Source: Lotus japonicus (taxonomy: Eukaryota > Streptophyta > Magnoliopsida > Fabales > Fabaceae). Taken from it: 64,000 nt of DNA. Below are positions 5,306-52,841 of this stretch, piece after piece. The notes beneath the pieces are model-generated. The model ran no database searches, was not told the DNA's origin, and was given only the letters and a program-made list of their open reading frames with translations. A program made the position numbers and the translations under genes. The stretch is taken from NCBI RefSeq assembly GCF_012489685.1, contig NC_080046.1:26294223-26358222 (forward strand), in the 5' to 3' direction. Within the stretch, counting starts at the first letter, position 1; each line of letters opens with the position of its first letter.

Positions 5306-5883
5306 TGTAAGATCAAGTTTTGATCTAGTAGTACAACTCTATGTTTTGATGATTACAAGTTAACCTTTTGATATGAACAATTGTGGTACTCTAACGTGTT
5401 TTTCTGAGTGTGCTATTTGCAGGTTCTGACCTCAACTCAATCTCACACGAATCAGAAGCACTGTGTATAAAGAGTGACCCAAGCAACGCTTTCGCATTCA
5501 CCATGTTCAGTATGAACAGTGGAAAAGCTTCAGAAGTTCTGAAGTTATACAAACTCTGATGTGGACTCAGTCACTAGAAGCTCTGAAGATCCAGAAGTTC
5601 TGATAACCAAGAAACACTGAAGGTTCAGATGTTCTGATGGTGTAGAAGACTCTGAAGATCCAGAAGCTGAATAGTGGAAACTCTGAAGTCCAGAAGCAAG
5701 AAACTCTGAAGGTCATGTTCTTCCCTCTGAGTTCAGAATCAGAAGATACAATGGTCAGAGGATCTGTGCTTTCCCTCTGACTCTGATCAACCGGCTTCAC
5801 AAGTTCCAATATGAAGCATTCCCCTGATCAGAAGTCTCCTAGGTTTAAAGGTCGCGTCGCTATCCAAGTACAAAAGCTACTGT
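5306..5883 (+). repeat. Element A 5' LTR, 3' half deleted
   Basis: It matches 13977-14554 of the same element's 3' LTR with few differences. The match stops in CAAAAGC.ACTGT at about 5883, after which the sequence jumps to the gag region corresponding to about 17968 of B. The TATA box, transcription start, end of the LTR and PBS are all lost, so this copy lacks its own normal promoter. Confidence 0.9.
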
Positions 5884-13237: not shown

Positions 13238-13976
13238 GATGCTTAACTTTCTCTCTGAAAGTTAATGCTCCTACGGTTTCTCGAGGTTAAGTTCTTGGTA
13301 ACTGACCCTTCTCTTTACTCACTTGACCGGTGGTAAACGTTCTTCTCTTGCATTAACTCTTCTATTTATTTCGCCTAACTCTGATTCTTGCATCGTTTTC
13401 ATTTCCTTTAAACACCTTCTCTAAGGGGGAGTACCTTGTACTTCAAGCTAAGTTTTTCACACCCCAAGCTTTTTGCTTATGACAAAAAGGGGGAGTAAAC
13501 CCAGTTTTTGATGTGTAAGATGTGTTAGTGTGATTTATTTTTCTTTTGGAGATTTTAAGAGTTCCACCTTCATGACCATAGATGTGTCACTGGGCAAATA
13601 CAAGGAATACATTTCACTTCTTCTGAAGTGATTATAAGTTGACTCTGATACCCAAGACTCTGATACCTTGTCCATGACTCTGATTACTTATGCGCTCTGA
13701 TTACTCGATTTTCATCTATGTCATAAGTTTTTCACTCTGAACTCTTATATTATTTAGCTCAGAATCTAGACTTTACTAACGTTTTCATCAAGTATTAGAT
13801 TCAGGGGGAGCTAAGCTCAGAATCAAGCAGTGACTTGAATTCATAATGAGCAAGATAAACTATTCACATCAGGATAAGTCTTATTCTATATCTCTAAACT
13901 CTGAGTGAATTCAGTTTAATGTTTAAGAATTGTTCATCAAAAATCTTAGTTTTGTCATCATCAAAAAGGGGGAGAT
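13238..13976 (+). other. Element A 3' non-coding region with four polypurine tracts
   Basis: G-rich purine tracts occur at about 13422-13432, 13484-13495, 13804-13810 and 13964-13976; the last is adjacent to the 3' LTR and is the likely functional PPT. AAAAAGGGGGAG is the shared core of the second and fourth. Repeated PPT copies are known for Sireviruses. No ORF. Confidence 0.8.
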
Positions 13977-15182
13977 TGTAAGATCAAGTTTTGATCTAGT
14001 AGTACAACTCTATGTTTTGATGATTACAAGTTAACCTTTTGATATGAACAATTGTGGTACTCTAACGTGTTTTTCTGAGTGTGCTATTTGCAGGTTCTGA
14101 CCTCAACTCAATCTCACACGAATCAGAAGCACTGTGTATAAAGAGTGACCCAAGCAACGCTTTCGCATTCACCATGTTCAGTATGAACAGTGGAAAAGCT
14201 TCAGAAGTTCTGAAGTTATACAAACTCTGATGTGGACTCAGTCACTAGAAGCTCTGAAGATCCAGAAGTTCTGATAACCAAGAAACACTGAAGGTTCAGA
14301 TGTTCTGATGGTGTAGAAGACTCTGAAGATCCAGAAGCTGAATAGTGGAAACTCTGAAGTCCAGAAGCAAGAAACTCTGAAGGCCATGTTCTTCCCTCTG
14401 AGTTCAGAATCAGAAGATACAATGGTCAGAGGATCTGTGCTTTCCCTCTGACTCTGATCAACCGGCTTCACAAGTTCCAATATGAAGCATTCCCCTGATC
14501 AGAAGTCTCCTAGGTTTAAAGGTCGCGTCGCTATCCAAGTACAAAAGCAACTGTACCTTCCTGACGACCTACCTAACGTTCTCAGCCACAGCAGAAGCTG
14601 GATTTTCCAGAACTGCCCTCCAACGGTAGCATTTCCCATGCATCGCTCAACCCTAATCCTTGGAGTATATAAAGAGGCTGAAGACTGAAAGAAACGACTA
14701 GAAGCATTCACATACGCAAGACATATCAAAAATCTTCTAAGTTTTCTTTCATCTGAAATTCATTGAGTTTACTATTAGCTTTTTAGAAGCAAATCTCTTG
14801 TAAACAATTCTTTGATAAACAGTTTGTTTAGTTCCTTTAGGAGATCAAGGTTGATCGGATCCTAGAGAAGACTAAGAGAGTGAATCTTAGTGTGAGCTAA
14901 GTCAGTGTAATTGTTAGTCACTTGTAGGTTTCAAGTGCAGTTGTAACTCTTACCTGATTAGTGGATTGCCTTCATTCTAAGAAGGAAGAAATCACCTTAA
15001 CGGGTGGACTGGAGTAGCTTGAGTGATTTATCAAGTGAACCAGGATAAAATCCTTGTGTGCTTTTCTATCTCTTATCTTTAGCACTTAAGTTCTCGAAAG
15101 ATTTGTCAAAATCTTTAAGGTGGAAGTTTTATACTGAAAACGTTATTCAAACCCCCCCTTTCTACCGTTTTTCATACCTTCA
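13977..15182 (+). repeat. Element A 3' LTR (complete)
   Basis: 1206 bp, TG...CA, preceded by a polypurine tract and followed by the target duplication cctca. A TATA-like box lies at 14666-14673 (TATATAAA). The U3 part is rich in CTCTGAAG and CCAGAAG short repeats and has the palindrome CTTCAGAAGTTCTGAAG. This is the most complete LTR of the Z/A subfamily and the reference for the truncated ones. Confidence 0.95.
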
Positions 15183-25865: not shown

Positions 25866-26139
25866 CTCTGAAAGTTAATGCTCTTACAGTTTCTCGAGGT
25901 TAAGTTCTTGGTAACTGACCCTTCTATTTACTCACTTGACCGGTGGTAAACGTTCATCCCTTGCATTAACTCTTCTATTTATTTTCGCCTAACTCTGATT
26001 CTTACATCGTTTTCATTTTCTTTTAAACTTAGACCTTCTCTAAGGGGGAGTACCTTGTACTTCAAGCTAAGTTTTTCACACCCCAAGCTTTTTGCTTATG
26101 ACAAAAAGGGGGAGTAAACCCAGTTTTTGATTTGTAAGA
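25866..26139 (+). other. Element B 3' non-coding region, part 1 (two polypurine tracts)
   Basis: It aligns with 13248-13520 of A. Polypurine tracts lie at about 26042-26050 and 26103-26115. C interrupts the region 25 bp after the second tract. The rest of the region resumes at 37498. Confidence 0.75.
26135..26139. repeat. Target site duplication of element C (left)
   Basis: taaga at 26135-26139 is repeated at 37493-37497, directly flanking TGTAAGACCC and ...GTGTTACA. It fixes the borders of C to the base. Confidence 0.95.
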
Positions 26140-26831
26140 TGTAAGACCCGGATTTTCGGAACAAGTTAATTTCTGACTCACGCGTGGAATCAGTGTAAGC
26201 GTGACAGGAGTTTGATATTTGAGAAAGATTAATGAAGAAGAAAGTTCAGGAATTGCTCGAGGAATGTGGCGTTGTTTCTTTCGGAGCTAGTGCGAGTCGT
26301 CTGCACACCTGCCTTATGGCGAGCATGTCCAGAATAGGCTATTTCGCTCTTAAAGCAACGTTTTAAGTGAGATTTCGAACTCTTGGAAAATTTAAAGTTT
26401 CTCTTTATTTTTCCATCGACCAGCGTTTCATTTCGGAACTCTGGACTGTACGCACGATAGGTTTAACTTTTCGGATGTCCGCCGACGCTAATTTCTTTGC
26501 TTCGAAACCCTATTTTCGAGCAATGGATGAAGACTTTTTCTATTCGGGACTTCTAACGAAGATTCCGTCCGCGTTGCCAGATTTGTTTCGACGTTTCCAA
26601 TCTTTCTTCAGAAGGAAGTTTTGTCGTCCGGCGATCACAGCAAAAAGTAGTTTTTCGGGACAGATTTAACTTACACCGCTTTTGAGATTTTCGATATCGT
26701 TTTTCCCATATCATAGATATTTGTTTTGAGTTCTGGATTTCTGACGCCAGAATCTCTCTTAGAATTCCTTGGTGAACGTGCTGCAAAAATCGGAATCGCG
26801 AAATTTTCATTTTCCCGCGATTTCACCCGCC

Positions 26832-26839
26832 TATAAATA
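26832..26839 (+). promoter_or_regulatory. TATA box of element C 5' LTR, inside an inverted repeat
   Basis: TATAAATA sits in CGCCTATAAATAGGCG, where CGCCTAT and ATAGGCG are inverted around AA. It implies a U3 of about 720 bp and an R-U5 of about 3 kb, so the hairpin arrays would be transcribed as part of the RNA leader. The second copy is at 34383-34390. Confidence 0.7.
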
Positions 26840-28314
26840 GGCGAAAAAGCAAAAATATCTCCACAAACACCACACAAGGCCGCGAGTTTGGGGGAGCTTG
26901 GGGGAGGAGAGATTTTCGCGAAAACTTGACCAATCTCCGTGCAGTTCGTCCCTACTTCTAGGTATCAAGGTAACTAACACGATTCCTACCTCTGATTGTT
27001 GTTTCTGTTGCGTTTCTGAAGTCGTTTCTGTGCTCTAAGTTTTGAGTTTTTTCTAAAATTGTCCGATTTCTCTGATTTCTCGCTTGGGTTATGTTCCTTA
27101 TGTTCCCCTGAGTCTAAAACCTCTGTCAGTAAACTCTGATTGCGATTCAGTTGTCCAGGATCTGAAAAATTGACTCAAAACTCTTTTTGTCTCACATTTC
27201 GAAACTTTATTGTCGTAAAGCTATAATCTGACTTCGTGCCTTTAGGATTTGTTGTCACGGATGTCATGAGGATCGTTGCTGTCAAATCTGTTTTCAGAAC
27301 GGATAACTTTGAAGTTTTGAGCCTTTATTTTGGACCAAAATGCCCCTGCGTAGTCGTATTTCGGCCCGATTGTCCGAAAATTGTTCTGACAGTTTCTTTG
27401 CCTTAGTTTTACCCTAAAACTACCTTGTGAATTGATTTGATCAAAGAAAAAGAGCCGAAGCCCTTTTTCCTTTGAGGCCGTGGACTATTTCCTTTAGGGG
27501 GGAGTTTTTCGGTTTCGAAAACTTGTCTTTTCGTACCTGATTGTCCTATTCTGAAGCTTTAATGCTTTGTCTATCGTTTATGTATTGTTTTGCGATCGAA
27601 CTAATCGATTTTGTTTGGATTCTGCTTTGTTTTTCTCCGAGGTTCAGTTGAGGAAACTTTGGAAGACTCAGAGCAATTGTTTGAGGAGAACTTTGTTTGC
27701 GAAGCTGGAACAGCTCGAGGTTAGGGCAACTTACATATATATTAGCTATGATTTCATAATAGGCGTCGATAAATTCGACTTATGCTTTGCTATGATATTG
27801 ATTATGATGATGGTTTATTGTTATGAATGTTTTCATAACTTATGATGTTGATGTTGTGTTGGATTGAGCGTTTTGACGCGACTTCGGAGTGGAGATTCAT
27901 TGATCTGGTGATCTTTGACATTTCGGGTTGGATGAACAACCCTAGGCAAGTCCAAACGAGGGGTTTGAGGCTTAGCCATTTGTTGGGATTCGTTTGAATA
28001 CTTAGACTTTCCCCGGGAAACTTCTTTTGGAGGGTTTTTGGAAAACTTAGAATGATTAGAATTTCGAAAACTAGAGACTCTGGGAGACTTAGAATTTGAG
28101 AAGTAAACTCATAACTTGACTAATTCAATTCGAAACGTTTTTACTAAACGAATAATCATAGGAGAACTAAAGGGGAAAATATTTACGAAAGACGGGGAAA
28201 AGTCGGCTTTTGTTGTGGGTTTGGAGAGTTTTGGAATTGGGGAAAGCCACTAAGGTGAGCTATGGTGATGATTGAAAGTCACCGAGTACTCTAGTACTCT
28301 TGGGAGTGTTGTTC

Positions 28315-28402
28315 GAGTCGTGTTGTATTGACCGGCACAGACTCTGGGCTTTGTTTGTGGGTTTTGTGGTGGGAGTTGTGTTGTATTGACCGACACTAAC
28401 TC
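28315..28402 (+). repeat. Hairpin family 3 in element C (two copies)
   Basis: Two 30-nt hairpins at 28315-28344 and 28373-28402. Arms are GAGTC/GACTC in the first and GAGTT/AACTC in the second, with inner arms GTGT paired to GCAC or ACAC and one unpaired base on one side; the loop TGTATTGACCG is constant. Copies in the right LTR at 35866-35953. The same unit is amplified to about eight copies in D. Confidence 0.75.
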
Positions 28403-28486
28403 ATGGTTTTGTTGGATTGGGTTGTGAGCTAAACACTTCCGTGGTAAGGGCGATTCGTTGTTTGGCTAACCATATTGCATCAATCG

Positions 28487-28628
28487 GGTGAATAACGGGA
28501 ATGGTTCACCTGTGCATATCATATGGTGAATAACGGGAATGGTTCACCAAGGATGAATAACGGGAATGGTTCATCCAGGATGGATAACGGGAATGGTCCA
28601 TCCATAGTGAAGAACGGGAAGCTTCACT
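28487..28628 (+). repeat. Hairpin family 1 array in element C (five hairpins)
   Basis: Hairpins at 28487-28510, 28525-28548, 28551-28576, 28578-28603 and 28606-28628. Stems in order: GGTGAA/TTCACC, GGTGAA/TTCACC, GGATGAA/TTCATCC, GGATGGA/TCCATCC, AGTGAAG/CTTCACT. The loop TAACGGGAATGG is kept in the first four and shortened to AACGGGAAG-like in the fifth. Both arms change together. The right LTR copy is at 36038-36179. Confidence 0.85.
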
Positions 28629-28972
28629 GAGGCGTGAGACTTCGTGAAAGCATGGAACTTCACTGAAGCGTGAGACTTCGTGAAAGTGAGTAAGCTTCAC
28701 TGAGGCGTGAGACTTCGTGAAAGCAGAAACTTCACTGAGGCGGGAGACCTCGTGGAGACGGGAACCTTCGCTGAAACGGGAGATTTTGCGGAGGCGTACA
28801 CCTTTGCTGAAGCGGGAGACTTTGCGGAGGCGTGCAACTTCACTGAAGCGTGAGACTTCGTGAAGGCGCGAAACTTCACTGAAGCGTGAGACTTCGTGAA
28901 TGTGTGAGATTTCACTGAAGCGTGAGACTTCGTGAAAGCGTAAGACCCCATTGAAGCGTGAGACTTCATGGA
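28623..28972 (+). repeat. Hairpin family 2 array in element C (ten hairpins, 36-bp period)
   Basis: Units of 26 nt start at 28623, 28659, 28696, 28731, 28767, 28803, 28839, 28875, 28911 and 28947. Consensus: TTCAC, one unpaired T, GAAG, loop CGTGAGA, CTTC, GTGAA. Variants keep pairing: GAGG/CCTC (28731), TTCGC/GCGGA (28767), TTTGC/GCGGA (28803), CCAT/ATGG (28947). The right LTR copy is at 36174-36523. The family was not found in D. Confidence 0.85.
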
Positions 28973-29944
28973 AGCGTGAGATTTCATCGTCGTTTACCCT
29001 AGGGCAACGACAGGGAACATTGGTTTAGTTGGATACGGGTGTGTTGGGAGGACGATACATTGTTTGACTAACCTTATCACCTAACTTCATATGTTGAGAT
29101 TATGATGATTTGATGTTGATGAACATCGTTAGGTATTAATGATTGAACTGTGTAGGAGATTCGAGGACATGCCATGTATATACCTTAGAGTAGGCAATAC
29201 ATAACCTATATGTATATATATACAACATATGTATATATCCCCTTTATCACAAGTTGATTGTATATCTATTGTATTATGTAAGTTGACCCTAGCGCCTTGG
29301 CTTTGTTTGTATGTTTGTGTTTGGGCGGTCGGCCTGCTGCCAGGCGTCTGTCAGCCGGTTCGTGATGATGCGTTGTACGGGAAAGACCCGGAGCGGAACA
29401 ACTATTACTGAAGCTTTCGACGAGGACCCGGACTTCATGCCTGATCGAGGGAGGGTCGATGATAGTAGTGTGGGGTATGGGTGGTTAGAGTCTTTTGGAG
29501 TTGGTTGTTACTGTAATAGCTCTGATTCGTTTTGCTTTTGGGACAGGGTAGGTTCCCGATGCATGGCTTTTTGTGTGATTCTCTTACGGAGGGATCACAG
29601 TGAGTCAGTCGGACCATAGGGGTCTTTGCTTAGGCCATTTTGAGGCCGACTTTCTCCTGGTGGTTTGTAATTATACTTTTTCTCACTCACACTTCTGGAT
29701 CTGTAAATATTTGCCTACGGGCACACTACTTTGGAGTCACTGCGAGTGTGTGGGGCGTGGAAGTGCAGCTGAGGCTGTACATGTTTATATTTGATGTATA
29801 TTGGTTAGTTTAGTAGTTGTGTTTTGTCTTTACTTCTTTATCGTTTTGATTTAAAGGAATCAATCGGAAAAAAATTACCTGTTTTCCGCGTAAAGATTAT
29901 TTTTGGTTACTAAAGTGACACCTGGAAATCGGGGTGTTACATTG

Positions 29945-29956
29945 TGGTATCAGAGC
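29945..29956 (+). promoter_or_regulatory. Element C primer binding site (initiator tRNA-Met)
   Basis: TGGTATCAGAGC three bases after the LTR end. The bases that follow (GGGGAATAGGTCTTCTGTGC and onward) are shared with the leader of D, which supports a common origin. Confidence 0.9.
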
Positions 29957-33690: not shown

Positions 33691-36600
33691 TGTAAGACCC
33701 GGATTTTCGGAACAAGTTAATTTCTGACTCACGCGTGGAATCAGTGTAAGCGTGACAGGAGTTTGATATTTGAGAAAGATTAATGAAGAAGAAAGTTCAG
33801 GAATTGCTCGAGGAATGTGGCGTTGTTTCTTTCGGAGCTAGTGCGAGTCGTCTGCACACCTGCCTTATGGCGAGCATGTCCAGAATAGGCTATTTCGCTC
33901 TTAAAGCAACGTTTTAAGTGAGATTTCGAACTCTTGGAAAATTTAAAGTTTCTCTTTATTTTTCCATCGACCAGCGTTTCATTTCGGAACTCTGGACTGT
34001 ACGCACGATAGGTTTAACTTTTCGGATGTCCGCCGACGCTAATTTCTTTGCTTCGAAACCCTATTTTCGAGCAATGGATGAAGACTTTTTCTATTCGGGA
34101 CTTCTAACGAAGATTCCGTCCGCGTTGCCAGATTTGTTTCGACGTTTCCAATCTTTCTTCAGAAGGAAGTTTTGTCGTCCGGCGATCACAGCAAAAAGTA
34201 GTTTTTCGGGACAGATTTAACTTACACCGCTTTTGAGATTTTCGATATCGTTTTTCCCATATCATAGATATTTGTTTTGAGTTCTGGATTTCTGACGCCA
34301 GAATCTCTCTTAGAATTCCTTGGTGAACGTGCTGCAAAAATCGGAATCGCGAAATTTTCATTTTCCCGCGATTTCACCCGCCTATAAATAGGCGAAAAAG
34401 CAAAAATATCTCCACAAACACCACACAAGGCCGCGAGTTTGGGGGAGCTTGGGGGAGGAGAGATTTTCGCGAAAACTTGACCAATCTCCGTGCAGTTCGT
34501 CCCTACTTCTAGGTATCAAGGTAACTAACACGATTCCTACCTCTGATTGTTGTTTCTGTTGCGTTTCTGAAGTCGTTTCTGTGCTCTAAGTTTTGAGTTT
34601 TTTCTAAAATTGTCCGATTTCTCTGATTTCTCGCTTGGGTTATGTTCCTTATGTTCCCCTGAGTCTAAAACCTCTGTCAGTAAACTCTGATTGCGATTCA
34701 GTTGTCCAGGATCTGAAAAATTGACTCAAAACTCTTTTTGTCTCACATTTCGAAACTTTATTGTCGTAAAGCTATAATCTGACTTCGTGCCTTTAGGATT
34801 TGTTGTCACGGATGTCATGAGGATCGTTGCTGTCAAATCTGTTTTCAGAACGGATAACTTTGAAGTTTTGAGCCTTTATTTTGGACCAAAATGCCCCTGC
34901 GTAGTCGTATTTCGGCCCGATTGTCCGAAAATTGTTCTGACAGTTTCTTTGCCTTAGTTTTACCCTAAAACTACCTTGTGAATTGATTTGATCAAAGAAA
35001 AAGAGCCGAAGCCCTTTTTCCTTTGAGGCCGTGGACTATTTCCTTTAGGGGGGAGTTTTTCGGTTTCGAAAACTTGTCTTTTCGTACCTGATTGTCCTAT
35101 TCTGAAGCTTTAATGCTTTGTCTATCGTTTATGTATTGTTTTGCGATCGAACTAATCGATTTTGTTTGGATTCTGCTTTGTTTTTCTCCGAGGTTCAGTT
35201 GAGGAAACTTTGGAAGACTCAGAGCAATTGTTTGAGGAGAACTTTGTTTGCGAAGCTGGAACAGCTCGAGGTTAGGGCAACTTACATATATATTAGCTAT
35301 GATTTCATAATAGGCGTCGATAAATTCGACTTATGCTTTGCTATGATATTGATTATGATGATGGTTTATTGTTATGAATGTTTTCATAACTTATGATGTT
35401 GATGTTGTGTTGGATTGAGCGTTTTGACGCGACTTCGGAGTGGAGATTCATTGATCTGGTGATCTTTGACATTTCGGGTTGGATGAACAACCCTAGGCAA
35501 GTCCAAACGAGGGGTTTGAGGCTTAGCCATTTGTTGGGATTCGTTTGAATACTTAGACTTTCCCCGGGAAACTTCTTTTGGAGGGTTTTTGGAAAACTTA
35601 GAATGATTAGAATTTCGAAAACTAGAGACTCTGGGAGACTTAGAATTTGAGAAGTAAACTCATAACTTGACTAATTCAATTCGAAACGTTTTTACTAAAC
35701 GAATAATCATAGGAGAACTAAAGGGGAAAATATTTACGAAAGACGGGGAAAAGTCGGCTTTTGTTGTGGGTTTGGAGAGTTTTGGAATTGGGGAAAGCCA
35801 CTAAGGTGAGCTATGGTGATGATTGAAAGTCACCGAGTACTCTAGTACTCTTGGGAGTGTTGTTCGAGTCGTGTTGTATTGACCGGCACAGACTCTGGGC
35901 TTTGTTTGTGGGTTTTGTGGTGGGAGTTGTGTTGTATTGACCGACACTAACTCATGGTTTTGTTGGATTGGGTTGTGAGCTAAACACTTCCGTGGTAAGG
36001 GCGATTCGTTGTTTGGCTAACCATATTGCATCAATCGGGTGAATAACGGGAATGGTTCACCTGTGCATATCATATGGTGAATAACGGGAATGGTTCACCA
36101 AGGATGAATAACGGGAATGGTTCATCCAGGATGGATAACGGGAATGGTCCATCCATAGTGAAGAACGGGAAGCTTCACTGAGGCGTGAGACTTCGTGAAA
36201 GCATGGAACTTCACTGAAGCGTGAGACTTCGTGAAAGTGAGTAAGCTTCACTGAGGCGTGAGACTTCGTGAAAGCAGAAACTTCACTGAGGCGGGAGACC
36301 TCGTGGAGACGGGAACCTTCGCTGAAACGGGAGATTTTGCGGAGGCGTACACCTTTGCTGAAGCGGGAGACTTTGCGGAGGCGTGCAACTTCACTGAAGC
36401 GTGAGACTTCGTGAAGGCGCGAAACTTCACTGAAGCGTGAGACTTCGTGAATGTGTGAGATTTCACTGAAGCGTGAGACTTCGTGAAAGCGTAAGACCCC
36501 ATTGAAGCGTGAGACTTCATGGAAGCGTGAGATTTCATCGTCGTTTACCCTAGGGCAACGACAGGGAACATTGGTTTAGTTGGATACGGGTGTGTTGGGA

Positions 36601-37492
36601 GGACGATACATTGTTTGACTAACCTTATCACCTAACTTCATATGTTGAGATTATGATGATTTGATGTTGATGAACATCGTTAGGTATTAATGATTGAACT
36701 GTGTAGGAGATTCGAGGACATGCCATGTATATACCTTAGAGTAGGCAATACATAACCTATATGTATATATATACAACATATGTATATATCCCCTTTATCA
36801 CAAGTTGATTGTATATCTATTGTATTATGTAAGTTGACCCTAGCGCCTTGGCTTTGTTTGTATGTTTGTGTTTGGGCGGTCGGCCTGCTGCCAGGCGTCT
36901 GTCAGCCGGTTCGTGATGATGCGTTGTACGGGAAAGACCCGGAGCGGAACAACTATTACTGAAGCTTTCGACGAGGACCCGGACTTCATGCCTGATCGAG
37001 GGAGGGTCGATGATAGTAGTGTGGGGTATGGGTGGTTAGAGTCTTTTGGAGTTGGTTGTTACTGTAATAGCTCTGATTCGTTTTGCTTTTGGGACAGGGT
37101 AGGTTCCCGATGCATGGCTTTTTGTGTGATTCTCTTACGGAGGGATCACAGTGAGTCAGTCGGACCATAGGGGTCTTTGCTTAGGCCATTTTGAGGCCGA
37201 CTTTCTCCTGGTGGTTTGTAATTATACTTTTTCTCACTCACACTTCTGGATCTGTAAATATTTGCCTACGGGCACACTACTTTGGAGTCACTGCGAGTGT
37301 GTGGGGCGTGGAAGTGCAGCTGAGGCTGTACATGTTTATATTTGATGTATATTGGTTAGTTTAGTAGTTGTGTTTTGTCTTTACTTCTTTATCGTTTTGA
37401 TTTAAAGGAATCAATCGGAAAAAAATTACCTGTTTTCCGCGTAAAGATTATTTTTGGTTACTAAAGTGACACCTGGAAATCGGGGTGTTACA
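33691..37492 (+). repeat. Element C 3' LTR (3802 bp)
   Basis: Copy of 26140-29941 at offset 7551, same length and no visible difference. It is followed by the target duplication taaga at 37493-37497, and B resumes. Hairpin arrays are at 35866-35953, 36038-36179 and 36174-36523. Confidence 0.95.
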
Positions 37493-37497
37493 TAAGA

Positions 37498-37953
37498 TGT
37501 GTTAGTGTGACTTATTTTTCTTTTGGAGATTTTAAGAGTTCCACCTTCATGACCATAGATGTGTCACTGGGCAAATACAAGGAATACATTTCACTTCTTC
37601 TGAAGTGATTCTAAGTTGACTCTGATACCCAAGACTCTGATACCTTGTCCCTGACTCTGATCACTTATGCGCTCTGATTATTCGTTTTTCATCTATGTCA
37701 TAAGCTTTTCACTCTGAACTCTTATATTTTTTAGCTCATAATCTAGACTTTACTAACGTTTTCATCAAGTATTAGATTCAGGGGGAGCTAAGCTCAGAAT
37801 CAAGCAGTGACTTGAATTCAGAATGAGCAAGATAAACTATTCACATCAGGATAAGTCTTATTCTATATCTCTAAACTCTGAGTGAATTCAGTTTAATGTT
37901 TAAGAATTGTTCATCAAAAATCTTAGTTTTGTCATCATCAAAAAGGGGGAGAT
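37498..37953 (+). other. Element B 3' non-coding region, part 2
   Basis: Continues the region interrupted at 26139. Polypurine tracts are at about 37780-37786 and 37941-37953, the latter touching the 3' LTR. No ORF. Confidence 0.75.
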
Positions 37954-38690
37954 TGTAAGATCAAGTTTTGATCTAGTAGTACAACTCTATGTTTTGATGA
38001 TTACAAGTTAACCTTTTGATATGAACAATTGTGGTACTCTAACGTGTTTTTCTGAGTGTGCTATTTACAGGCTCTGACCTCAACTCAATCTCACACAAAT
38101 CAGAAGCACTGTGTATAAAGGGTAACCCAAGCAACGCTTTCGCATTCACCATGTTCAGTATGAACAGTGGAAAAGCTTCAGAAGTTCTGAAGCTATACAA
38201 ACTCTGATGTGGACTCAGTCGCTAGAAGCTCTGAAGATCCAGAAGTTCTGATAACCAAGAAACACTGAAGGTTCAGATGTTCTGATGGTGTAGAAGACTC
38301 TGAAGATCCAGAAGCTGAATAGTGGAAACTCTGAAGTCCAGAAGCAAGAAACTCTGAAGGCCATGTTCTTCCCTCTGAGTTCAGAATCAGAAGATACAAT
38401 GGTCAGAGGATCTGTGCTTTCCCTCTGACTCTGATCAACCGGCTTCACAAGTTCCAATATGAAGTATTCCCCTGATCAGAAGTCTCCTAGGTTAAAAGGT
38501 CAAGTCGCTATCCAAGTACAAAAGCAAGTGTACCTTCCTGACGACCTACCTAACGTTCTCAGCCACAGCAGAAGCTGGATTTTCCAGAACTGCCCTCCAA
38601 CGGTAGCATTTCCCATGCAACGCTCAACCCTAATCCTTGGAGTATATATAGAGGCTGAAGATTGAAAGAAGCGGCTAGAAAAAAAAAAAT
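37954..38690 (+). repeat. Element B 3' LTR, 3' part missing
   Basis: It matches 15710-16444 of the 5' LTR and breaks off in an A-run right after ...GAAGCGGCTAG. About 475 bp of LTR are missing. The TATA-like box is kept (about 38643-38650). The next base belongs to E, whose integrase is also short at this point, so a single deletion probably removed both sides. Confidence 0.9.
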
Positions 38691-39499: not shown

Positions 39500-40218
39500 T
39501 GTAACACCCCGATTTTCGGGTGCCACGGTAGTAACATGTTAAAGTAAATATGCAATCTTTTCCAAAAGGGATTTATAAATGTGAGTATTTATTTTTTTTT
39601 TCCTTTTCGAAGTGTTTCTAAAATATGTAATGCATACTCCCAGCCGTAAATAATTTACATCTGGCCTCGATCAAGGCATAGCATAGAGTACATGACAAAT
39701 AAACTAAGATCCAACAACGGACTCACTATGCAAAGACTCCATAAATCCGATATACTCCCTATGATTTCCACACTGGGTAACCATAGGAAAGCAATGCACC
39801 GGAACCTACCCGAAACCTTAAATACAAATCATAAAATGATCCTGCAAGCTTAAACCAATAACGGTAAGCTTTTCTATCCAAAGGCTCTAGCCCTACACCC
39901 GACTCTATTCTTCGAGTCTTCTATAGATCTTCCACGTGGAGTAGCATCTGCTCACATCACCTCCTTTCGTCGTCTGGCAGCAGGCCGACCGCCCAAACAC
40001 AAACATACAACCAAAGCCAAGGCGCGAGGGTCAACTCACAGTAATAAGTAGATATACACTCAACATGTGATATGGGGTATAGATATATGTTGATATATAT
40101 ATATATATAAACAATCCTAGCATGTTATTAGCTCTAACAATGCTTCAAATAAATCAAACAGCACACAATTCCAGTCAGAGTGAATGTATGCGTGAAATGC
40201 AATCATGAATCCGGATTT

Positions 40219-40444
40219 GTGACGCGTTCCCGTTCGCCACAAGTGAAGCATTCTCGTTCTTCACTATGGATGGACCATTTCCGTTATCCATCCTGGATGA
40301 ACCATTCCCGTTATTCATCCTTGGTGAACCATTCCCGTTATTCACCATATGATGAACCATTCCCGTTATTCATCATTTATGCAAGGTGAACCATTCCCGT
40401 TATTCACCATGATATGCACAGGTGAACCATTCCCGTTATTCACC
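40219..40444 (-). repeat. Hairpin family 1 array in element D (seven hairpins plus one weaker)
   Basis: Plus-strand hairpins at 40242-40265 (AGTGAAG/CTTCACT), 40268-40293 (GGATGGA/TCCATCC), 40295-40320 (GGATGAA/TTCATCC), 40323-40346 (GGTGAA/TTCACC), 40349-40376 (ATGATGAA/TTCATCAT), 40385-40408 and 40421-40444 (GGTGAA/TTCACC). The loop is CCATTCCCGTTA with few changes. A weaker unit is at 40219-40240. Second copy at 47821-48046. Confidence 0.85.
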
Positions 40445-40529
40445 CGATTGATGCAATATGGTTAGCCAAACAACGAATCGCCCTTACCACGAAAGTGTTT
40501 AGCTCACAACCCAATCTCAACAAACCCAT

Positions 40530-40878
40530 GAGTTAGTGTCGGTCAATACAACACAACTCGGAGTAAGTGTCGGTCAATACAACACAACTCCATCAACAAG
40601 AATACACAAGGGTCTAGTGTCGGTCAATACAACACAGCCCAAACAACAAGAGCACTAAGTGTCGGTCAATACAACACGGCTCCAACAACAAGATAACCCA
40701 AGGGATTAGTGTCGGTCAATACAACACAACCCCAACAACAAAACCCAAAATCAAAGCCAGAGTCAGTGTCGGTCAATACAACACGACTCGGAGTTAGTGT
40801 CGGTCAATACAACACAACTCCCACCACAAAACCCACAAACAAAGCCCAGAGTCTGTGCCGGTCAATACAGCACGACTC
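40530..40878 (-). repeat. Hairpin family 3 array in element D (about eight units)
   Basis: Units share CGGTCAATACA in the loop. Clear stems: 40530-40559 GAGTT/AACTC, 40760-40789 GAGTC/GACTC, 40791-40820 GAGTT/AACTC, 40849-40878 GAGTC/GACTC with inner arm GTGC/GCAC instead of GTGT/ACAC, and 40702-40733 GGG..TT/AA..CCC. Three others (40561-40590, 40611-40640, 40650-40682) pair less well. Second copy at 48132-48480. Confidence 0.8.
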
Positions 40879-43800
40879 GAACAACACTCCCAAGAGTACT
40901 AGAGTACTCGGTGACTTTCAATCATCACCATAGCTCACCTTAGTGGCTTTCCCCAATTCCAATAACTCTCCAAACCCACAACAAAGTCGACTTTTCCCCG
41001 TCTTTCGCAATTATTTTCCCCTTTAGTTCTCCTATGATTATTCGTTTAGTAAAAAAGTTTCGAATTGGATTAGTCAGGTTATGAGTTTATTTCTCAAAGT
41101 CTAAGTCTCCCAAAATCTCTAGTTTTCGAAATTCTATTCATTCTAGGTTTTCCGAAAACCAACCACCCAAAAGAAGTTTCCCGGGGAAAGTCTAAGTATT
41201 CAAACGAATCCCAACAAATGGCTAAGTCTCAAACCCCACATTTGAACTTGCCTAGGGTTGTTCATCCAACCTAAAATATCAAAGATCACCAGATCAATGA
41301 ATCTCCACTCCGAAGTTGCGTCAAAACGCTCAATCCAACAAAAGCACAACATCACAAGTTATGGAAAAGCATCATAACATCAACTCATCATCATAAACAA
41401 CATCAGATAAAGCATAAGTCGAATTTATCGACGCCTATCATGCAATCATAGATAAATATGTAAGTTGCCCTAACCTTAGGCGCTTTCCTTACTAAGTTGC
41501 GACTCAAATCAAATCCAGTCATATCTTTGCTTTCCCGTGTTGGCTCACTTCCGTCTGTTCTTTGGCTTCGTCGTCAAGCGCTTCCGTTATTCATACCCTT
41601 CATAAGTACACATAACATAATCACTAATTGAGCTACCTACTTTCCAAGTCTAAAGCTACACTCTCAAGCAATTGACTCGACGAAATCACAAGTTAAACTC
41701 AATCTCCTTAATGGTTATAAACCATCAAGATCAACCTCAGAAATTAAGATAAGTCATCATAATGACAACAAAGCAATAACAAAGCTTCAAAATCTTATGA
41801 CTTAGTAAATCAACTTTAAAACCAAATACTCATATGCTTGTCAAAATAGATAAGTACACATTACTAGTACTTACTCCTCTCATTTTCCTTAGAGATCTCA
41901 GTCTCTAATAGGATACTCATTGAGGTATTTTCGCAATACTACACACCACTTCCCGTTAAAGCAATTAACACAACATCTGCAATAGCATTCTCCTATCATC
42001 CTCCTTAAGTAATCTCTTCCCGTTTTCTATTCCATAATCCTCTTTATCCTCAATACTTACTTATCAAGTCACCTACAACAACTTAATGTCTCAACTCGCT
42101 CTCACGATCTATTCCTCAAGCCAACGTTGTATCATTATCAATTCTTATCAAAACCACTAACTCTTATCAAGTAATCCATAAACCATAGTTAACTTCCAAG
42201 GCAAACAACTCTTCTTATCTAATGATTATGTACTTATTCATGACTCATAAGCTCCTTCAAAACGATCGAATCATTTCTCTTAAACTTAAACTCGCGATAT
42301 CTCATTAGACACACAACCCTAGTTTCTTCGAAACTCCACTTTGGTTCTACAAAAATCCCAACTTATAGATAAGTCATCAATCTCTAAGAAATAACTTCTA
42401 GTCCTCAATCAATCCCTTAATCACTTCTAAGTCCTTGAACTTCCAAAGTTTCAAATCTAGACCTTCTAGAACCAAGTATTTATAGTAAAGCTCATAGACT
42501 TCTTGTAATTCAAGATTCAATCCTAAGTCATCTTCCAACATCAAGATTGCAATCACAACTTAATCCATTCTAATTAATACCTTTCGGAGTCTAATTCCTC
42601 ACTCGGAAATCCAAACTTAATTGCTCTAACTCCATCCAATCTTGTTATTCCTAAGCATCCATCGACTAGCGAGATAGTATCAATACGCTTATTCCCTAAC
42701 ACTCCGACAACTTGTTCGACTTTAAAACCTTTCGCAATCGCTTTCTAACGAATAAATGTGTGTGAACTCAAACGTTCTCTATTTTCATAAACGGATAAAC
42801 AACGTATGTAAGTAAGTTTAAAAATATGTTTTCCTACTCCAAGGCATTGCAATATCGATTAAAATAAAAGGTTTTCTCATCTTTTTCCCAAAGCAATTCT
42901 TTTCACTTGAAATAACTAATTTTGTCAAACGATTATAAACTGTACAGCGGCTTTAGCTAATTTTTAAATACGTCAAATGAACTCCGAAAAATCTACTATT
43001 TTTATCCTGGCTTCATCTACAGGTTTTGTAAATCCTCATAAATATTCAAGTCTAAATTCAAAGTACAAAATTCAGGAAAAATCGAATACTACAGCAGTTC
43101 GTGAGAAACGGGACAGCTTAACCCGTGCTCACCAAAATGCGTATAACTTGAGCTAGACAAATCAAAACGACACGAAACCAGTGGCAAAAGTTTTCTAACG
43201 GAAAAATCTACAACTATTATGAAGAACACAGTTCGAAAATCTTAACCGAAACATACGAGTTTAACAGAACAGCGGCTACTACTTTTGAAAACAACAACAG
43301 TTTTATGTGAGTTTTCGCAAAAGCTTTTCAAGCACATTAAGGCTTAAAACAAAATCCTTAAAACCCCCAAAACCACTTAACTCAAAGGAAACAACTTTTT
43401 AGAAAACTTAATACATTAACATAAAACTCTACTCAACCATTCAACCTTTGTAAAGAGATTAGTAAAACATATTACATTAGAAATATATATTTTCTTCAGC
43501 CAATTAGCAGTAGAAAGAGTTTCAAATATGTTTTATATTAAAGTAGACTCTTGGGGCTTTCTAAAAAGTGGTCATACACCTAAAACGGATAAAAGATGAG
43601 AGAGTTATGCAATTTTCAAGTTGGAGAACCGAAACAGGAAATTGTCCCCTGCAGGTTCTGTTAGTGACGGAAAAACAGAGCTTTGTGACGGAAAAACTGA
43701 TGTTTGTGACGGACTTCATAACAGAACGTGGTTTTGAAATTTCCAACATGTTCTCAGCACCAAAACACTATCTCAAACCATTTTGATTCATCTAAACCCC

Positions 43801-45237
43801 AGATAAATTTAGAAATCAAATATACAAACATACTAATCAAGAAATTAAGGCTTTTACCAAGGAAAATGAGAAGATGATGGTGGAGGAGCTTAAATCCCTA
43901 TTTCATGAAATGATCAGATCTTGTTCTAAGAATTTTGAAGCATGTAAATGAAGTTTATCAATTAGAGATAGCAAAGGAAAAGGTTTTACCACATGAGGAA
44001 GTAAAGTGGCATGGTGATGGTGTCTCCTTGTCATGATATGGAAGATGAAGCTTGAACAATACCATATGATGAATGGGGCTGTACGTTTGTGGTGCTGGCC
44101 TTCTCGTGGTGGCCATGGAGAGAAAGAAGAGGAACATGGTGGCTGCCATGGTGGCTTTCTTGCGTGAAGAAGGAGGGGCAGAACAAGAACATGTTTGTGG
44201 TGATGGTTTTCATGGTGGAAAGGAGAAGAAGAACGTGATTATGGTGGCCTCTTGGCTGGACTGTTGCCATGGTGAGGATGAGGGACGGTGGTGATGGTGT
44301 GGGTGCTGCACGTGAATGAAGAAGAAAGGAAAACCATGGTGGTGATGGCTGGCTTCGTTGTGGCCATGGAGAGGATTGGTGGCGGCTTGAACATGAAGGA
44401 AGAAGCAACTCGTGATGATGGTGAGGTGCTGTACAAGAGAGAAAATAAGAATTTGGTGTTGGTGATGAGGAGAAGAAGAGAACAAGAAAGGAGAAAACAT
44501 GAAGAAGAACAAATGAAATGGGTATGCAGCAAAAGAAAGAAAAAAAACGTGAAGGAAGAAAGAAATGAGAGTGAGCCGAGGATGAGGTGGACGGAGGGAT
44601 AAGGATGGTGAGATATTTTCTAAAGATACTTTGAGAAGATATATATTTTTTTAAAATCGGTACGAATTGATTTAGACACTGAATGATTTAGCTCATAAAG
44701 TTAAGAGAAAAATATATGAGTGATATATTATTATCCCAAAAATTATGGGGAACTCTATGAAATGATAAAATATAAATTTGAATCACTTTGAGCAAAATAA
44801 AATGATCCGTGAATCAAGAAATGAGTAGAAACTGAGCTAAAGAATAATTGTGAGATAATTAGAACAAATATGACGTTGTCATATTATGTGCCTAAGCTAG
44901 AATAATTTACAAGGAAAATGACAATAGTAACTATTATCATTTGAGAGGAACAGACAAACTTTAGATAGCTCACAGAGCGTTGAATTGAGTTTATCGAATA
45001 AAACAAAAGTTATGACTTATTAAAAATAAGAAGACTAATGATATTATTTCTATTTTCAATGAAACTATAGAAAATAAAATATTTTGAAACTAATTATCAT
45101 TTAAATGATTTCCTTGATTCTTAATTAAAATCAAGTCAGGAAAATAACTTTAAAAATATTAATAGATTATAAACACTCAATTAATTAATATAATGAAATT
45201 AAATAAATAATCTAGTTATTTATTTCAGGGTCTTACA

Positions 45238-47101: not shown

Positions 47102-50100
47102 TGTAACACCCCGATTTTCGGGTGCCACGGTAGTAACATGTTAAAGTAAATATGCAATCTTTTCCAAAAGGGATTTATAAATGTGAGTATTTATTTTTTT
47201 TTTCCTTTTCGAAGTGTTTCTAAAATATGTAATGCATACTCCCAGCCGTAAATAATTTACATCTGGCCTCGATCAAGGCATAGCATAGAGTACATGACAA
47301 ATAAACTAAGATCCAACAACGGACTCACTATGCAAAGACTCCATAAATCCGATATACTCCCTATGATTTCCACACTGGGTAACCATAGGAAAGCAATGCA
47401 CCGGAACCTACCCGAAACCTTAAATACAAATCATAAAATGATCCTGCAAGCTTAAACCAATAACGGTAAGCTTTTCTATCCAAAGGCTCTAGCCCTACAC
47501 CCGACTCTATTCTTCGAGTCTTCTATAGATCTTCCACGTGGAGTAGCATCTGCTCACATCACCTCCTTTCGTCGTCTGGCAGCAGGCCGACCGCCCAAAC
47601 ACAAACATACAACCAAAGCCAAGGCGCGAGGGTCAACTCACAGTAATAAGTAGATATACACTCAACATGTGATATGGGGTATAGATATATGTTGATATAT
47701 ATATATATATAAACAATCCTAGCATGTTATTAGCTCTAACAATGCTTCAAATAAATCAAACAGCACACAATTCCAGTCAGAGTGAATGTATGCGTGAAAT
47801 GCAATCATGAATCCGGATTTGTGACGCGTTCCCGTTCGCCACAAGTGAAGCATTCTCGTTCTTCACTATGGATGGACCATTTCCGTTATCCATCCTGGAT
47901 GAACCATTCCCGTTATTCATCCTTGGTGAACCATTCCCGTTATTCACCATATGATGAACCATTCCCGTTATTCATCATTTATGCAAGGTGAACCATTCCC
48001 GTTATTCACCATGATATGCACAGGTGAACCATTCCCGTTATTCACCCGATTGATGCAATATGGTTAGCCAAACAACGAATCGCCCTTACCACGAAAGTGT
48101 TTAGCTCACAACCCAATCTCAACAAACCCATGAGTTAGTGTCGGTCAATACAACACAACTCGGAGTAAGTGTCGGTCAATACAACACAACTCCATCAACA
48201 AGAATACACAAGGGTCTAGTGTCGGTCAATACAACACAGCCCAAACAACAAGAGCACTAAGTGTCGGTCAATACAACACGGCTCCAACAACAAGATAACC
48301 CAAGGGATTAGTGTCGGTCAATACAACACAACCCCAACAACAAAACCCAAAATCAAAGCCAGAGTCAGTGTCGGTCAATACAACACGACTCGGAGTTAGT
48401 GTCGGTCAATACAACACAACTCCCACCACAAAACCCACAAACAAAGCCCAGAGTCTGTGCCGGTCAATACAGCACGACTCGAACAACACTCCCAAGAGTA
48501 CTAGAGTACTCGGTGACTTTCAATCATCACCATAGCTCACCTTAGTGGCTTTCCCCAATTCCAATAACTCTCCAAACCCACAACAAAGTCGACTTTTCCC
48601 TGTCTTTCGCAATTATTTTCCCCTTTAGTTCTCCTATGATTATTCGTTTAGTAAAAAAGTTTCGAATTGGATTAGTCAGGTTATGAGTTTATTTCTCAAA
48701 GTCTAAGTCTCCCAAAATCTCTAGTTTTCGAAATTCTATTCATTCTAGGTTTTCCGAAAACCAACCACCCAAAAGAAGTTTCCCGGGGAAAGTCTAAGTA
48801 TTCAAACGAATCCCAACAAATGGCTAAGTCTCAAACCCCACATTTGAACTTGCCTAGGGTTGTTCATCCAACCTAAAATATCAAAGATCACCAGATCAAT
48901 GAATCTCCACTCCGAAGTTGCGTCAAAACGCTCAATCCAACAAAAGCACAACATCACAAGTTATGGAAAAGCATCATAACATCAACTCATCATCATAAAC
49001 AACATCAGATAAAGCATAAGTCGAATTTATCGACGCCTATCATGCAATCATAGCTAAATATGTAAGTTGCCCTAACCTTAGGCGCTTTCCTTACTAAGTT
49101 GCGACTCAAATCAAATCCAGTCATATCTTTGCTTTCCCGTGTTGGCTCACTTCCGTCTGTTCTTTGGCTTCGTCGTCAAGCGCTTCCGTTATTCATACCC
49201 TTCATAAGTACACATAACATAATCACTAATTGAGCTACCTACTTTCCAAGTCTAAAGCTACACTCTCAAGCAATTGACTCGACGAAATCACAAGTTAAAC
49301 TCAATCTCCTTAATGGTTATAAACCATCAAGATCAACCTCAGAAATTAAGATAAGTCATCATAATGACAACAAAGCAATAACAAAGCTTCAAAATCTTAT
49401 GACTTAGTAAATCAACTTTAAAACCAAATACTCATATGCTTGTCAAAATAGATAAGTACACATTACTAGTACTTACTCCTCTCATTTTCCTTAGAGATCT
49501 CAGTCTCTAATAGGATACTCATTGAGGTATTTTCGCAATACTACACACCACTTCCCGTTAAAGCAATTAACACAACATCTGCAATAGCATTCTCCTATCA
49601 TCCTCCTTAAGTAATCTCTTCCCGTTTTCTATTCCATAATCCTCTTTATCCTCAATACTTACTTATCAAGTCACCTACAACAACTTAATGTCTCAACTCG
49701 CTCTCACGATCTATTCCTCAAGCCAACGTTGTATCATTATCAATTCTTATCAAAACCACTAACTCTTATCATGTAATCCATAAACCATAGTTAACTTCCA
49801 AGGCAAACAACTCTTCTTATCTAATGATTATGTACTTATTCATGACTCATAAGCTCCTTCAAAACGATCGAATCATTTCTCTTAAACTTAAACTCACGAT
49901 ATCTCATTAGACACACAACCCTAGTTTCTTCGAAACTCCACTTTGGTTCTACAAAAATCCCAACTTATAGATAAGTCATCAATCTCTAAGAAATAACTTC
50001 TAGTCCTCAATCAATCCCTTAATCACTTCTAAGTCCTTGAACTTCCAAAGTTTCAAATCTTGACCTTCTAGAACCAAGTATTTATAGTAAAGCTCATAGA

Positions 50101-52841
50101 CTTCTTGGAATTCAAGATTCAATCCTAAGTCATCTTCCAACATCAAGATTGCAATCACAACTTAATCCATTCTAATTAATACCTTTCGGAGTCTAATTCC
50201 TCACTCGGAAATCCAAACTTAATTGCTCTAACTCCATCCAATCTTGTTATTCCTAAGCATCCATCGACTAGCGAGATAGTATCAATACGCTTATTCCCTA
50301 ACACTCCGACAACTTGTTCGACTTTAAAACCTTTCGCAATCGCTTTCTAACGAATAAATGTGTGTGAACTCAAACGTTCTCTATTTTCATAAACGGATAA
50401 ATAAAGTATGTAAGTAAGTTTAAAAATATGTTTTCCTACTCCAAGGCATTGCAATATCGATTAAAATAAAAGGTTTTCTCATCTTTTTCCCAAAGCAATT
50501 CTTTTCACTTGAAATAACTAATTTTGTCAAACGATTATAAACTGTACAGCGGCTTTAGCTAATTTTTAAATACGTCAAATGAACTCCGAAAAATCTACTA
50601 TTTTTTATCCTGGCTTCATCTACAGGTTTTGTAAATCCTCATAAATATTCAAGTCTAAATTCAAAGTACAAAATTCAGGAAAAATCGAATACTACAGCAG
50701 TTCGTGAGAAACGGGACAGCTTAACCCGTGCTCACCAAAATGCGTATAACTTGAGCTAGACAAATCAAAACGACACGAAACCAGTGGCAAAAGTTTGCTA
50801 ACGGAAAAATCTACAACTATTATGAAGAACACAGTTCGAAAATCTTAACCGAAACATACGAGTTTAACAGAACAGCGGCTACTACTTTTGAAAACAACAA
50901 CAGTTTTATGTGAGTTTTCGCAAAAGCTTTTCAAGCACATTAAGGCTTAAAAAAAAATCCTTAAAACCCCCAAAACCACTTAACTCAAAGGAAACAACTT
51001 TTTAGAAAACTTAATACATTAACATAAAACTCTACTCAACCACTCAACCTTTGTAAAGAGATTAGTAAAACATATTACATTAGAAATATATATTTTCTTC
51101 AGCCAATTAGCAGAAGAAAGAGTTTCAAATATGTTTTATATTAAAGTAGACTTTTGGGGCTTTCTAAAAAGTGGTCATACACCTAAAACGGATAAAAGAT
51201 GAGAGAGTTATGCAATTTTCAAGTTGGAGAACCGAAACAGGAAATTGTCCCCTGCAGGTTCTGTTAGTGACGGAAAAACAGAGCTTTGTGACGGAAAAAC
51301 TGATGTTTGTGACGGACTTCATAACAGAACGTGGTTTTGAAATTTCCAACATGTTCTCAGCACCAAAACACTATCTCAAACCATTTTGATTCATCTAAAC
51401 CCCAGATAAATTTAGAAATCAAATATACAAACATACTAATCAAGAAATTAAGGCTTTTACCAAGGAAAATGAGAAGATGATGGTGGAGGAGCTTAAATCC
51501 CTATTTCATGAAATGATCAGATCTTGTTCTAAGAATTTTGAAGCATGTAAATGAAGTTTATCAATTAGAGATAGCAAAGGAAAAGGTTTTACCACATGAG
51601 GAAGTAAAGTGGCATGGTGATGGTGTCTCCTTGTCATGATATGGAAGATGAAGCTTGAACAATACCATATGATGAATGGGGCTGTACGTTTGTGGTGCTG
51701 GCCTTCTCGTGGTGGCCATGGAGAGAAAGAAGAGGAACATGGTGGCTGCCATGGTGGCTTTCTTGCGTGAAGAAGGAGGGGCAGAACAAGAACATGTTTG
51801 TGGTGATGGTTTTCATGGTGGAAAGGAGAAGAAGAACGTGATTATGGTGGCCTCTTGGCTGGACTGTTGCCATGGTGAGGATGAGGGACGGTGGTGATGG
51901 TGTGGGTGCTGCACGTGAATGAAGAAGAAAGGAAAACCATGGTGGTGATGGCTGGCTTCGTTGTGGCCATGGAGAGGATTGGTGGCGGCTTGAACATGAA
52001 GGAAGAAGCAACTCGTGATGATGGTGAGGTGCTGTACAAGAGAGAAAATAAGAATTTGGTGTTGGTGATGAGGAGAAGAAGAGAACAAGAAAGGAGAAAA
52101 CATGAAGAAGAACAAATGAAATGGGTATGCAGCAAAAGAAAGAAAAAAAACGTGAAGGAAGAAAGAAATGAGAGTGAGCCGAGGATGAGGTGGACGGAGG
52201 GATAAGGATGGTGAGATATTTTCTAAAGATACTTTGAGAAGATATATATTTTTTTTAAAATCGGTACGAATTGATTTAGACACTGAATGATTTAGCTCAT
52301 AAAGTTAAGAGAAAAATATATGAGTGATATATTATTATCCCAAAAATTATGGGGAACTCTATGAAATGATAAAATATAAATTTGAATCACTTTGAGCAAA
52401 ATAAAATGATCCGTGAATCAAGAAATGAGTAGAAACTGAGCTAAAGAATAATTGTGAGATAATTAGAACAAATATGACGTTGTCATATTATGTGCCTAAG
52501 CTAGAATAATTTACAAGGAAAATGACAATAGTAACTATTATCATTTGAGAGGAACAGACAAACTTTAGATAGCTCACAGAGCGTTGAATTGAGTTTATCG
52601 AATAAAACAAAAGTTATGACTTATTAAAAATAAGAAGACTAATGATATTATTTCTATTTTCAATGAAACTATAGAAAATAAAATATTTTGAAACTAATTA
52701 TCATTTAAATGATTTCCTTGATTCTTAATTAAAATCAAGTCAGGAAAATAACTTTAAAAATAATAATAGATTATAAACACTCAATTAATTAATATAATGA
52801 AATTAAATAAATAATCTAGTTATTTATTTCAGGGTCTTACA
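47102..52841 (-). repeat. Element D 5' LTR (right copy, 5740 bp)
   Basis: Second copy of 39500-45237 at an offset of 7602, rising to 7604 after two 1-bp T insertions near 50608 and 52250. Hairpin arrays at 47821-48046 and 48132-48480. It ends at 52841, followed by tcagt and the E RNase H. Confidence 0.92.

Follow-up and report, generated by a model that had tools for sequence, protein, structure and literature searches.

Tandem arrays of covarying hairpins in the long terminal repeats of Lotus japonicus Ty3/gypsy retrotransposons

The long terminal repeats (LTRs) of a group of Lotus japonicus retrotransposons carry tandem arrays of sense-strand RNA hairpins in which the stems drift in sequence while remaining paired, whereas the loop, a bulged base and particular U.G pairs change little. 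The arrays were characterized in a window of 64,000 nucleotides (contig NC_080046.1, positions 26,294,223 to 26,358,222) containing two such elements, termed C and D, and in further LTRs sampled from the genome. They may constitute a packaging signal recognized by the Gag/NC protein, a reading that we put forward tentatively, at somewhat under an even chance.

Elements C and D and their hairpin arrays

The features of both elements are listed in Table 1. Element C is bordered on both sides by the target site duplication TAAGA, and its primer binding site is presumably of the initiator tRNA-Met type. Its gag product gave a Retrotrans_gag match above the cut-off and a Ty3_capsid match below it, the closest relatives being L. 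japonicus proteins, and its other internal ORFs are each of 103 aa or less (stop to stop). Element D consists of LTRs and a primer binding site with a 1.9 kb internal region, and its flanks (TCAAT/TCAGT) match at four of five positions. A motif scan of this internal region detected no gag and no CCHC knuckle, the longest sense ORF being 91 aa, and the reverse transcriptase (RT) motif [FY][VIAT]DD was not found in six frames of either internal region. By their LTRs and primer binding sites C and D are Ty3/gypsy LTR retrotransposons, with the TAAGA target site duplication and a Ty3-type gag in C and no gag in D, and by internal ORFs and RT motif neither is an autonomous gag-pol element.

Table 1. 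Features of elements C and D in window coordinates
Feature	Position	Strand	Remarks
Element C 5' LTR	26140..29941	+	termini TGTAAGACCC...GGTGTTACA; identical to 33691-37492
Candidate promoter TATA CTATAAATAGG	26832..26839	+	motif only; outside the parts common to D
Candidate 5' splice site AAG/GTAACT	26970..26975	+	predicted; top-scoring GT in the first 4 kb by matrix score
LTR module upstream of arrays, common to C and D	27718..28345	+	about 92% identity; predicted stems without retention
Element C array A, 2 hairpins	28315..28402 (28315-28344, 28373-28402)	+	loop UAUUGAC, fixed U.G, one-base bulge
Element C array B, 5 hairpins	28486..28629 (starts 28486, 28524, 28551, 28578, 28605)	+	loop AACGGGAAUG
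Array C, 10 hairpins	28623..28972	+	loop CGUGAGA/CGGGAGA, bulged U
TATA-rich block common to C and D	29207-29346		second promoter candidate
Element C primer binding site TGGTATCAGAGC	29945..29956	+	sequence
Element C gag ORF, 384 aa	30154..31308	+	Retrotrans_gag capsid and two CCHC zinc knuckles
Element C 3' LTR	33691..37492	+	same hairpin arrays, offset +7551
Element D LTR, about 5.7 kb	39500..45237	-	paired with 47103..52841
Element D second LTR	47103..52841	-	99.7% identical to partner LTR
Element D array B, 8 hairpins	47819..48047	-	second copy at about 40217-40445
Element D array A, 8 hairpins	48132..48480	-	second copy at about 40530-40878

Homology between the C and D LTRs begins abruptly at AG/GTTAGGG (27718; 49078 on the minus strand), with nothing matching before it, and this sharp start would be consistent with modular recombination of LTRs. 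Element C is itself nested inside another repeat (26135-26139), further occurrences of which lie in the window around 1-157, 13241-14703 and 37493-38680. Repeats of 17 bp (AGAAGCTCTGAAGATCC) were also observed in another repeat family of the window, at 881-973, 5576-5668, 14247-14339 and 38224-38316.

The array noticed first, array C, is the last of three sense-strand hairpin arrays (A, B and C) in the element C LTR. Numbers of A, B and C hairpins per LTR are 2, 5 and 10 in element C and 8, 8 and 0 in element D, array C being absent from the latter. A sequence-only reading had described ten units with a 36-bp period, and the array was present as described, with 89 of 90 stem cells paired and a terminal C.A mismatch in unit 28947 as the sole exception. 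Units of the form TTCAC-T-GAAG / CGTGAGA / CTTC-GTGAA start at 28623, 28659, 28696, 28731, 28767, 28803, 28839, 28875, 28911 and 28947, a spacing of 36 with one 37 and one 35, and each hairpin is 26 nt long. The four paired changes cited for units 28731, 28767, 28803 and 28947 were all found, with G.U pairs where these had been stated. The unpaired T and the loop had both been called fixed; the bulged T is indeed present in 10/10 units, but the loop is CGTGAGA in seven and CGGGAGA in three. RNAfold predicts that a C-G pair within this loop closes a four-base GNRA-type tip. The outer stem of array A is variable, and the last array B hairpin of element C has a 9-nt loop. When the whole window was scanned generically for words that recur between stems of differing sequence, nothing was recovered except the B arrays and the A arrays of element D; array C was probably missed because the bulge breaks its stem. 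Rfam cmscan of window positions 26000-53000 gave no matches at E values up to 5. A kissing-loop interaction was considered and dropped, as the reverse complement of the four loop words was found once in two LTRs (position 2133 of the D LTR).

Covariation of the hairpin stems

All three arrays display covariation above a sequence-only null, as is characteristic of structured RNA. Among 8, 10 and 6 distinct rows for A, B and C, two-sided changes were observed at 4 of 11, 6 of 8 and 4 of 9 pairs, respectively. The covariation score exceeded all 500 shuffles in each array, and the number of two-sided pairs was matched by 6, 12 and 2 of the 500; the number of pair types was not above that in shuffles, with 441, 41 and 277 of 500 reaching the observed value. 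When arms were swapped between units, pairing fell from 104/110 cells to a mean of 98.8 in array A (p 6e-4), from 102/104 to 82.9 in array B (p 2e-5) and from 89/90 to 84.3 in array C (p 7e-4). In neutral duplication trees matched for divergence (3000 runs per array), the two-sided changes observed over all rows (4, 6 and 5 pairs in A, B and C) were reached in 0/3000 runs; considered by itself, the percentage of paired cells was matched by 1.7% of runs for A and by no run for B or C. The suggestion that the paired changes of array C reflect a maintained structure is thus supported, both by this covariation in all three arrays and by the contrast of widespread with rare variants described below.

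The same simulations, together with that contrast, make it highly improbable that the arrays are a by-product without present function, left by an old hairpin that was duplicated in tandem, since simulated neutral duplication did not reproduce the data. Such an origin would agree with the varying presence of arrays among LTR variants, but of the changed pairs in minimum free energy (MFE) stems predicted outside the arrays, in the module common to C and D, only 11 of 26 were kept (C-based; 12 of 27 D-based). In an internal stretch common to C and D, 25 of 49 and 25 of 42 changed pairs were kept. The array stretches themselves, compared between C and D by regional MFE across arrays of unequal unit number, gave 1/3 and 0/3 kept pairs (C-based) and 2/3 and 1/3 (D-based); with so few changes between C and D here, the covariation is therefore between units and not between the two elements. 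RNAalifold was run on two rows, an alignment that is biased towards kept pairs. Whole-array MFE z-scores (20 shuffles each) were -2.3 sense and -3.5 antisense for C and -3.6 sense and -6.0 antisense for D; these values are modest and stronger on the antisense strand, and together with the sliding z-scores they are not decisive.

Array C provides an internal control, as each arm can pair with either neighbour. Arms around the kept loop covary, whereas around the variable spacer no signal was obtained (76/81 against 76.1, p 0.72). The two phases were also compared in 20 further stretches plus the window (21 loci). For arm combinations at two or more loci, Watson-Crick changes made up 12 of 32 changed cells in the loop phase and 2 of 44 in the other phase, and kept to broken cells numbered 26/6 against 28/16 (p 0.08). 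The difference gave p 0.05 at three or more loci and p 0.03 at six or more (15/1 against 8/6 kept/broken).

This asymmetry also bears on processes at the DNA level, namely template-switch palindrome correction, gene conversion or dyad DNA-binding sites. Such processes can rewrite both arms, and cis-regulatory repeats in LTRs are often palindromic (PMC2829016), but a copying process that rewrites both arms of array C, as the sequence-only reading had also envisaged, fits poorly. Besides the lack of covariation in the other phase, the bulged T of all ten C units persists uncorrected, as does a U.G pair at one array A position in 10/10 window units, which speaks against palindrome correction. The array A position is U-A in only 2 + 2 sampled loci, and one array B position is U.G in 10 of 13 window units. 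G.U outnumbers A.C by 9 to 2 (one-sided p 0.03) among the minor cells of the arrays in the window, and both kinds of intermediate persist in the genome sample. In addition, the conserved part is the loops and not the letters of the arms, and widespread variants differ from rare ones. An origin at the DNA level is accordingly given little probability.

Array-bearing LTRs and their internal regions across the genome

The array is not confined to one copy, and the possibility that other family members might lack it was not borne out. In the 554 Mb genome, the exact C unit had 2087 matches, the array 3' flank (up to one mismatch) 483 and a 16-base A core 9001, with 0 matches for the reversed-pattern control in each case. 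The array patterns occurred in 0, 2 and 1 stretches of viral contigs and in 2 of prokaryote genomes, about chance level. By means of these patterns, 100 stretches were picked among the matches listed on two contigs and, with C and D of the window, gave a sample of 102. C units were chosen by their loop (up to one mismatch to CGNRAGA) and an unpaired T five bases before it, so that conservation of loop and bulge in the sample is partly selected while stem pairing is not. An array was called where five or more such loops occurred, giving 79 of 102 stretches with array C and 800 units, of which 87 were distinct. With thresholds of at least two A hairpins, at least three B hairpins or a C array, 27 stretches contained A+B+C, 26 A+C, 26 C only, 15 A+B, 6 A only and 2 none, although short stretches may lose an upstream A. 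Two variants with array C and without A or B (L017 and L022) carry other hairpin-like upstream repeats (GAGTA..TACTC type, by eye), which look as if array modules had been swapped.

Two stretches (L095 and L107) are second LTRs of elements already sampled (99.6-99.8% identity) and a third (L050) is likely to be one (96-98% identity to L048). With these excluded, 99 stretches remained, 77 of them with array C. Changed stem cells in variants present at 10 or more loci were kept/broken in ratios of 17/2 for C, 9/0 for B and 1/0 for the inner stem of A, and in variants at one or two loci of 33/43, 8/9 and 6/10, respectively. The contrast was significant for C (Fisher, 2.4e-4) and B (0.008), array A alone giving no significant contrast (0.41). 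Pooled, 27 of 29 widespread and 47 of 109 rare cells were kept (p 4.6e-7), and all 102 stretches gave 27/2 against 48/62 (p 5.7e-7); these p values are guides only, because the cut-offs were set after the variant table had been seen and cells share ancestry. Variants at 3-9 loci, outside the contrast, gave 2/2 for C and 1/0 for A, with none for B, and an earlier contrast on 42 stretches was significant for C only and not for B or A. Most changes in rare variants probably arose recently or after insertion, so that these variants would provide a near-neutral yardstick. Since widespread variants mostly keep pairing and rare ones often break it, pairing is filtered during propagation. Among rare C variants G.U cells exceed A.C by 21 to 10. 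Intermediates seen in array C include A-U to G.U to G-C, U-A to U.G to C-G and C-G to C.A (5 loci) to U-A, and two widespread C variants (58 and 22 loci) retain an A.C cell.

The internal regions of 12 presumed array-bearing LTR pairs all contained CCHC knuckle coding, some with four knuckles, whilst a capsid motif was present in 2 and lacking in 10, and no RT motif was found in their sense frames. Five of these ORFs were analyzed by hmmscan, which identified knuckles in 5/5 and the capsid in the two where it was expected, the other seven being assigned by motif. Several of the knuckle ORFs are broken. The knuckle region of the 12 copies showed 8 synonymous and 15 other changes (0.54 per site), change counts that give at most a weak indication of selection on the ORF. 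A further copy has a predicted 204-aa ORF with four knuckles. Array copies with four-knuckle ORFs and no capsid match were also observed at L116 and L118 (G000:C2 7039600-7048490) and at L133, and the ORF of the L116/L118 element lies inside an exact 1978-bp duplication. Two LTR pairs were more widely spaced, at least in part through an antisense copia-type gag in one and an exact 1978-bp duplication in the other, and none of the eight listed ORFs scanned there was pol. Pairing of C1:28350912 with 28361248 as one wide-spaced element was ruled out, their arrays being just 82-89% alike, and L054/L055 are therefore not the internal region of that supposed element.

Possible roles of the arrays

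The lack of pol in both elements, and of gag in D, together with near-identical LTRs, indicates recent mobilization in trans and dependence on cis signals. The hairpins would then act as multivalent binding sites on the full-length element RNA for a trans-acting protein, the putative binder most likely being a Gag/NC zinc-knuckle protein, and the arrays would serve as an encapsidation or recruitment signal through which polymerase-less elements may be copied in trans. Guanosines exposed in loops are bound by NC knuckles, and a G is exposed in each of the three kinds of loop. Together with the covariation, the mobilization in trans and the knuckle coding, this leads us tentatively to favour a packaging signal read by Gag/NC, with other RNA roles next. 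A more elaborate proposal, which we consider unlikely, is that the arrays form a multivalent RNA 'barcode' of swappable modules, made of three kinds of hairpin whose loops are kept. Its reader would be a zinc-knuckle protein encoded by the element, without capsid and with doubled knuckles in many copies, and array and protein would jointly capture foreign particles so that copying can take place in trans.

The candidate TATA at 26832 would place the arrays in the leader, the position proposed in the sequence-only reading, and the TATA-rich block at 29207-29346 near the RNA 3' end, so that either candidate promoter would leave them inside the full-length RNA. The former TATA sits in a palindrome (CGCCTATAAATAGGCG, 26825-26845; sense fold z -3.7 for the stretch). 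A leader running from it to gag would contain 56 ATGs which, with the candidate splice donor at 26970, would make export or translation a real problem for the element. The hairpins may have been selected for another RNA role, in the nuclear export or stability of unspliced RNA, in translation across a long leader, or in recruiting an RNA-binding protein of the host. The same covariation and the same contrast between widespread and rare variants speak for it, but element D, which has no gag that could be translated, still retains arrays A and B, and such a role is regarded as possible though on the whole doubtful.

A host-facing role, with the arrays as sources or targets of small RNAs or as silencing decoys, appears improbable, as Dicer substrates usually have stems longer than the 7-11 bp seen here, and kept loops with drifting stems fit recognition of the tip and not of the duplex sequence. 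It finds some support in the association of Sirevirus LTR palindromes with small-RNA excess in maize (PMC10760457). Sireviruses (Ty1/copia) carry repeated palindromic motifs such as CACCGGACTGTCCGGTG in their LTRs and so resemble the present elements in having repeated short, hairpin-capable inverted repeats in the LTRs of abundant plant retrotransposons; the Sirevirus motifs are described as having conserved arm letters (CGG-CCG), lying 5' of the TATA box and serving as cis-regulatory sites in DNA, and maize Ty3/RLG elements as being generally without an obvious peak of such structure (PMC2829016, PMC10760457). In contrast, the Lotus arrays belong to a Ty3-type family, keep their loops while their arms covary, and lack conserved arm letters in A, B and C alike.

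The design also resembles that of the coat-protein hairpins of phages MS2 and PP7, in which the protein reads loop and bulge, stem letters are mostly free and binding becomes multivalent on repetition, a likeness of design only, without known sequence relation; tandem arrays of these hairpins are engineered. Known packaging signals consist of a few different stem-loops near the RNA 5' end, whereas elements C and D carry 16-17 hairpins in tandem, of two or three kinds, inside a long LTR. Retroviral and Ty1/Ty3 packaging likewise depends on cis-acting RNA for recognition of genomic RNA by Gag, and where proteins are supplied in trans a defective element requires nothing but its cis signals (PMC4974528), a likeness that would extend to the Lotus elements if the arrays act in packaging. 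In barley, RNA of the gag-defective BARE2 is packaged in particles of its relative BARE1, with separate RNA pools and splicing; these are Ty1/copia elements, and the available part of that report mentions no hairpin array (PMC3735527). The nearest legume lead, on enod40 stem-loops derived from transposable elements, describes no such arrays in the part available (PMC10578108), and searches of titles and abstracts in the open-licence literature turned up none on hairpin arrays that covary in LTRs.

The arrays bear on how defective plant LTR elements are recognized and copied in trans, packaging sequences not being precisely defined even for Ty1 and Ty3 (PMC4974528). The 800 sampled C hairpins, 87 of them distinct, with their drifting stems and kept tips, amount to an evolutionary mutational scan that names the letters possibly recognized. 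The signal can therefore be tested directly, as can the protein that partners it and whether it is dispensable.
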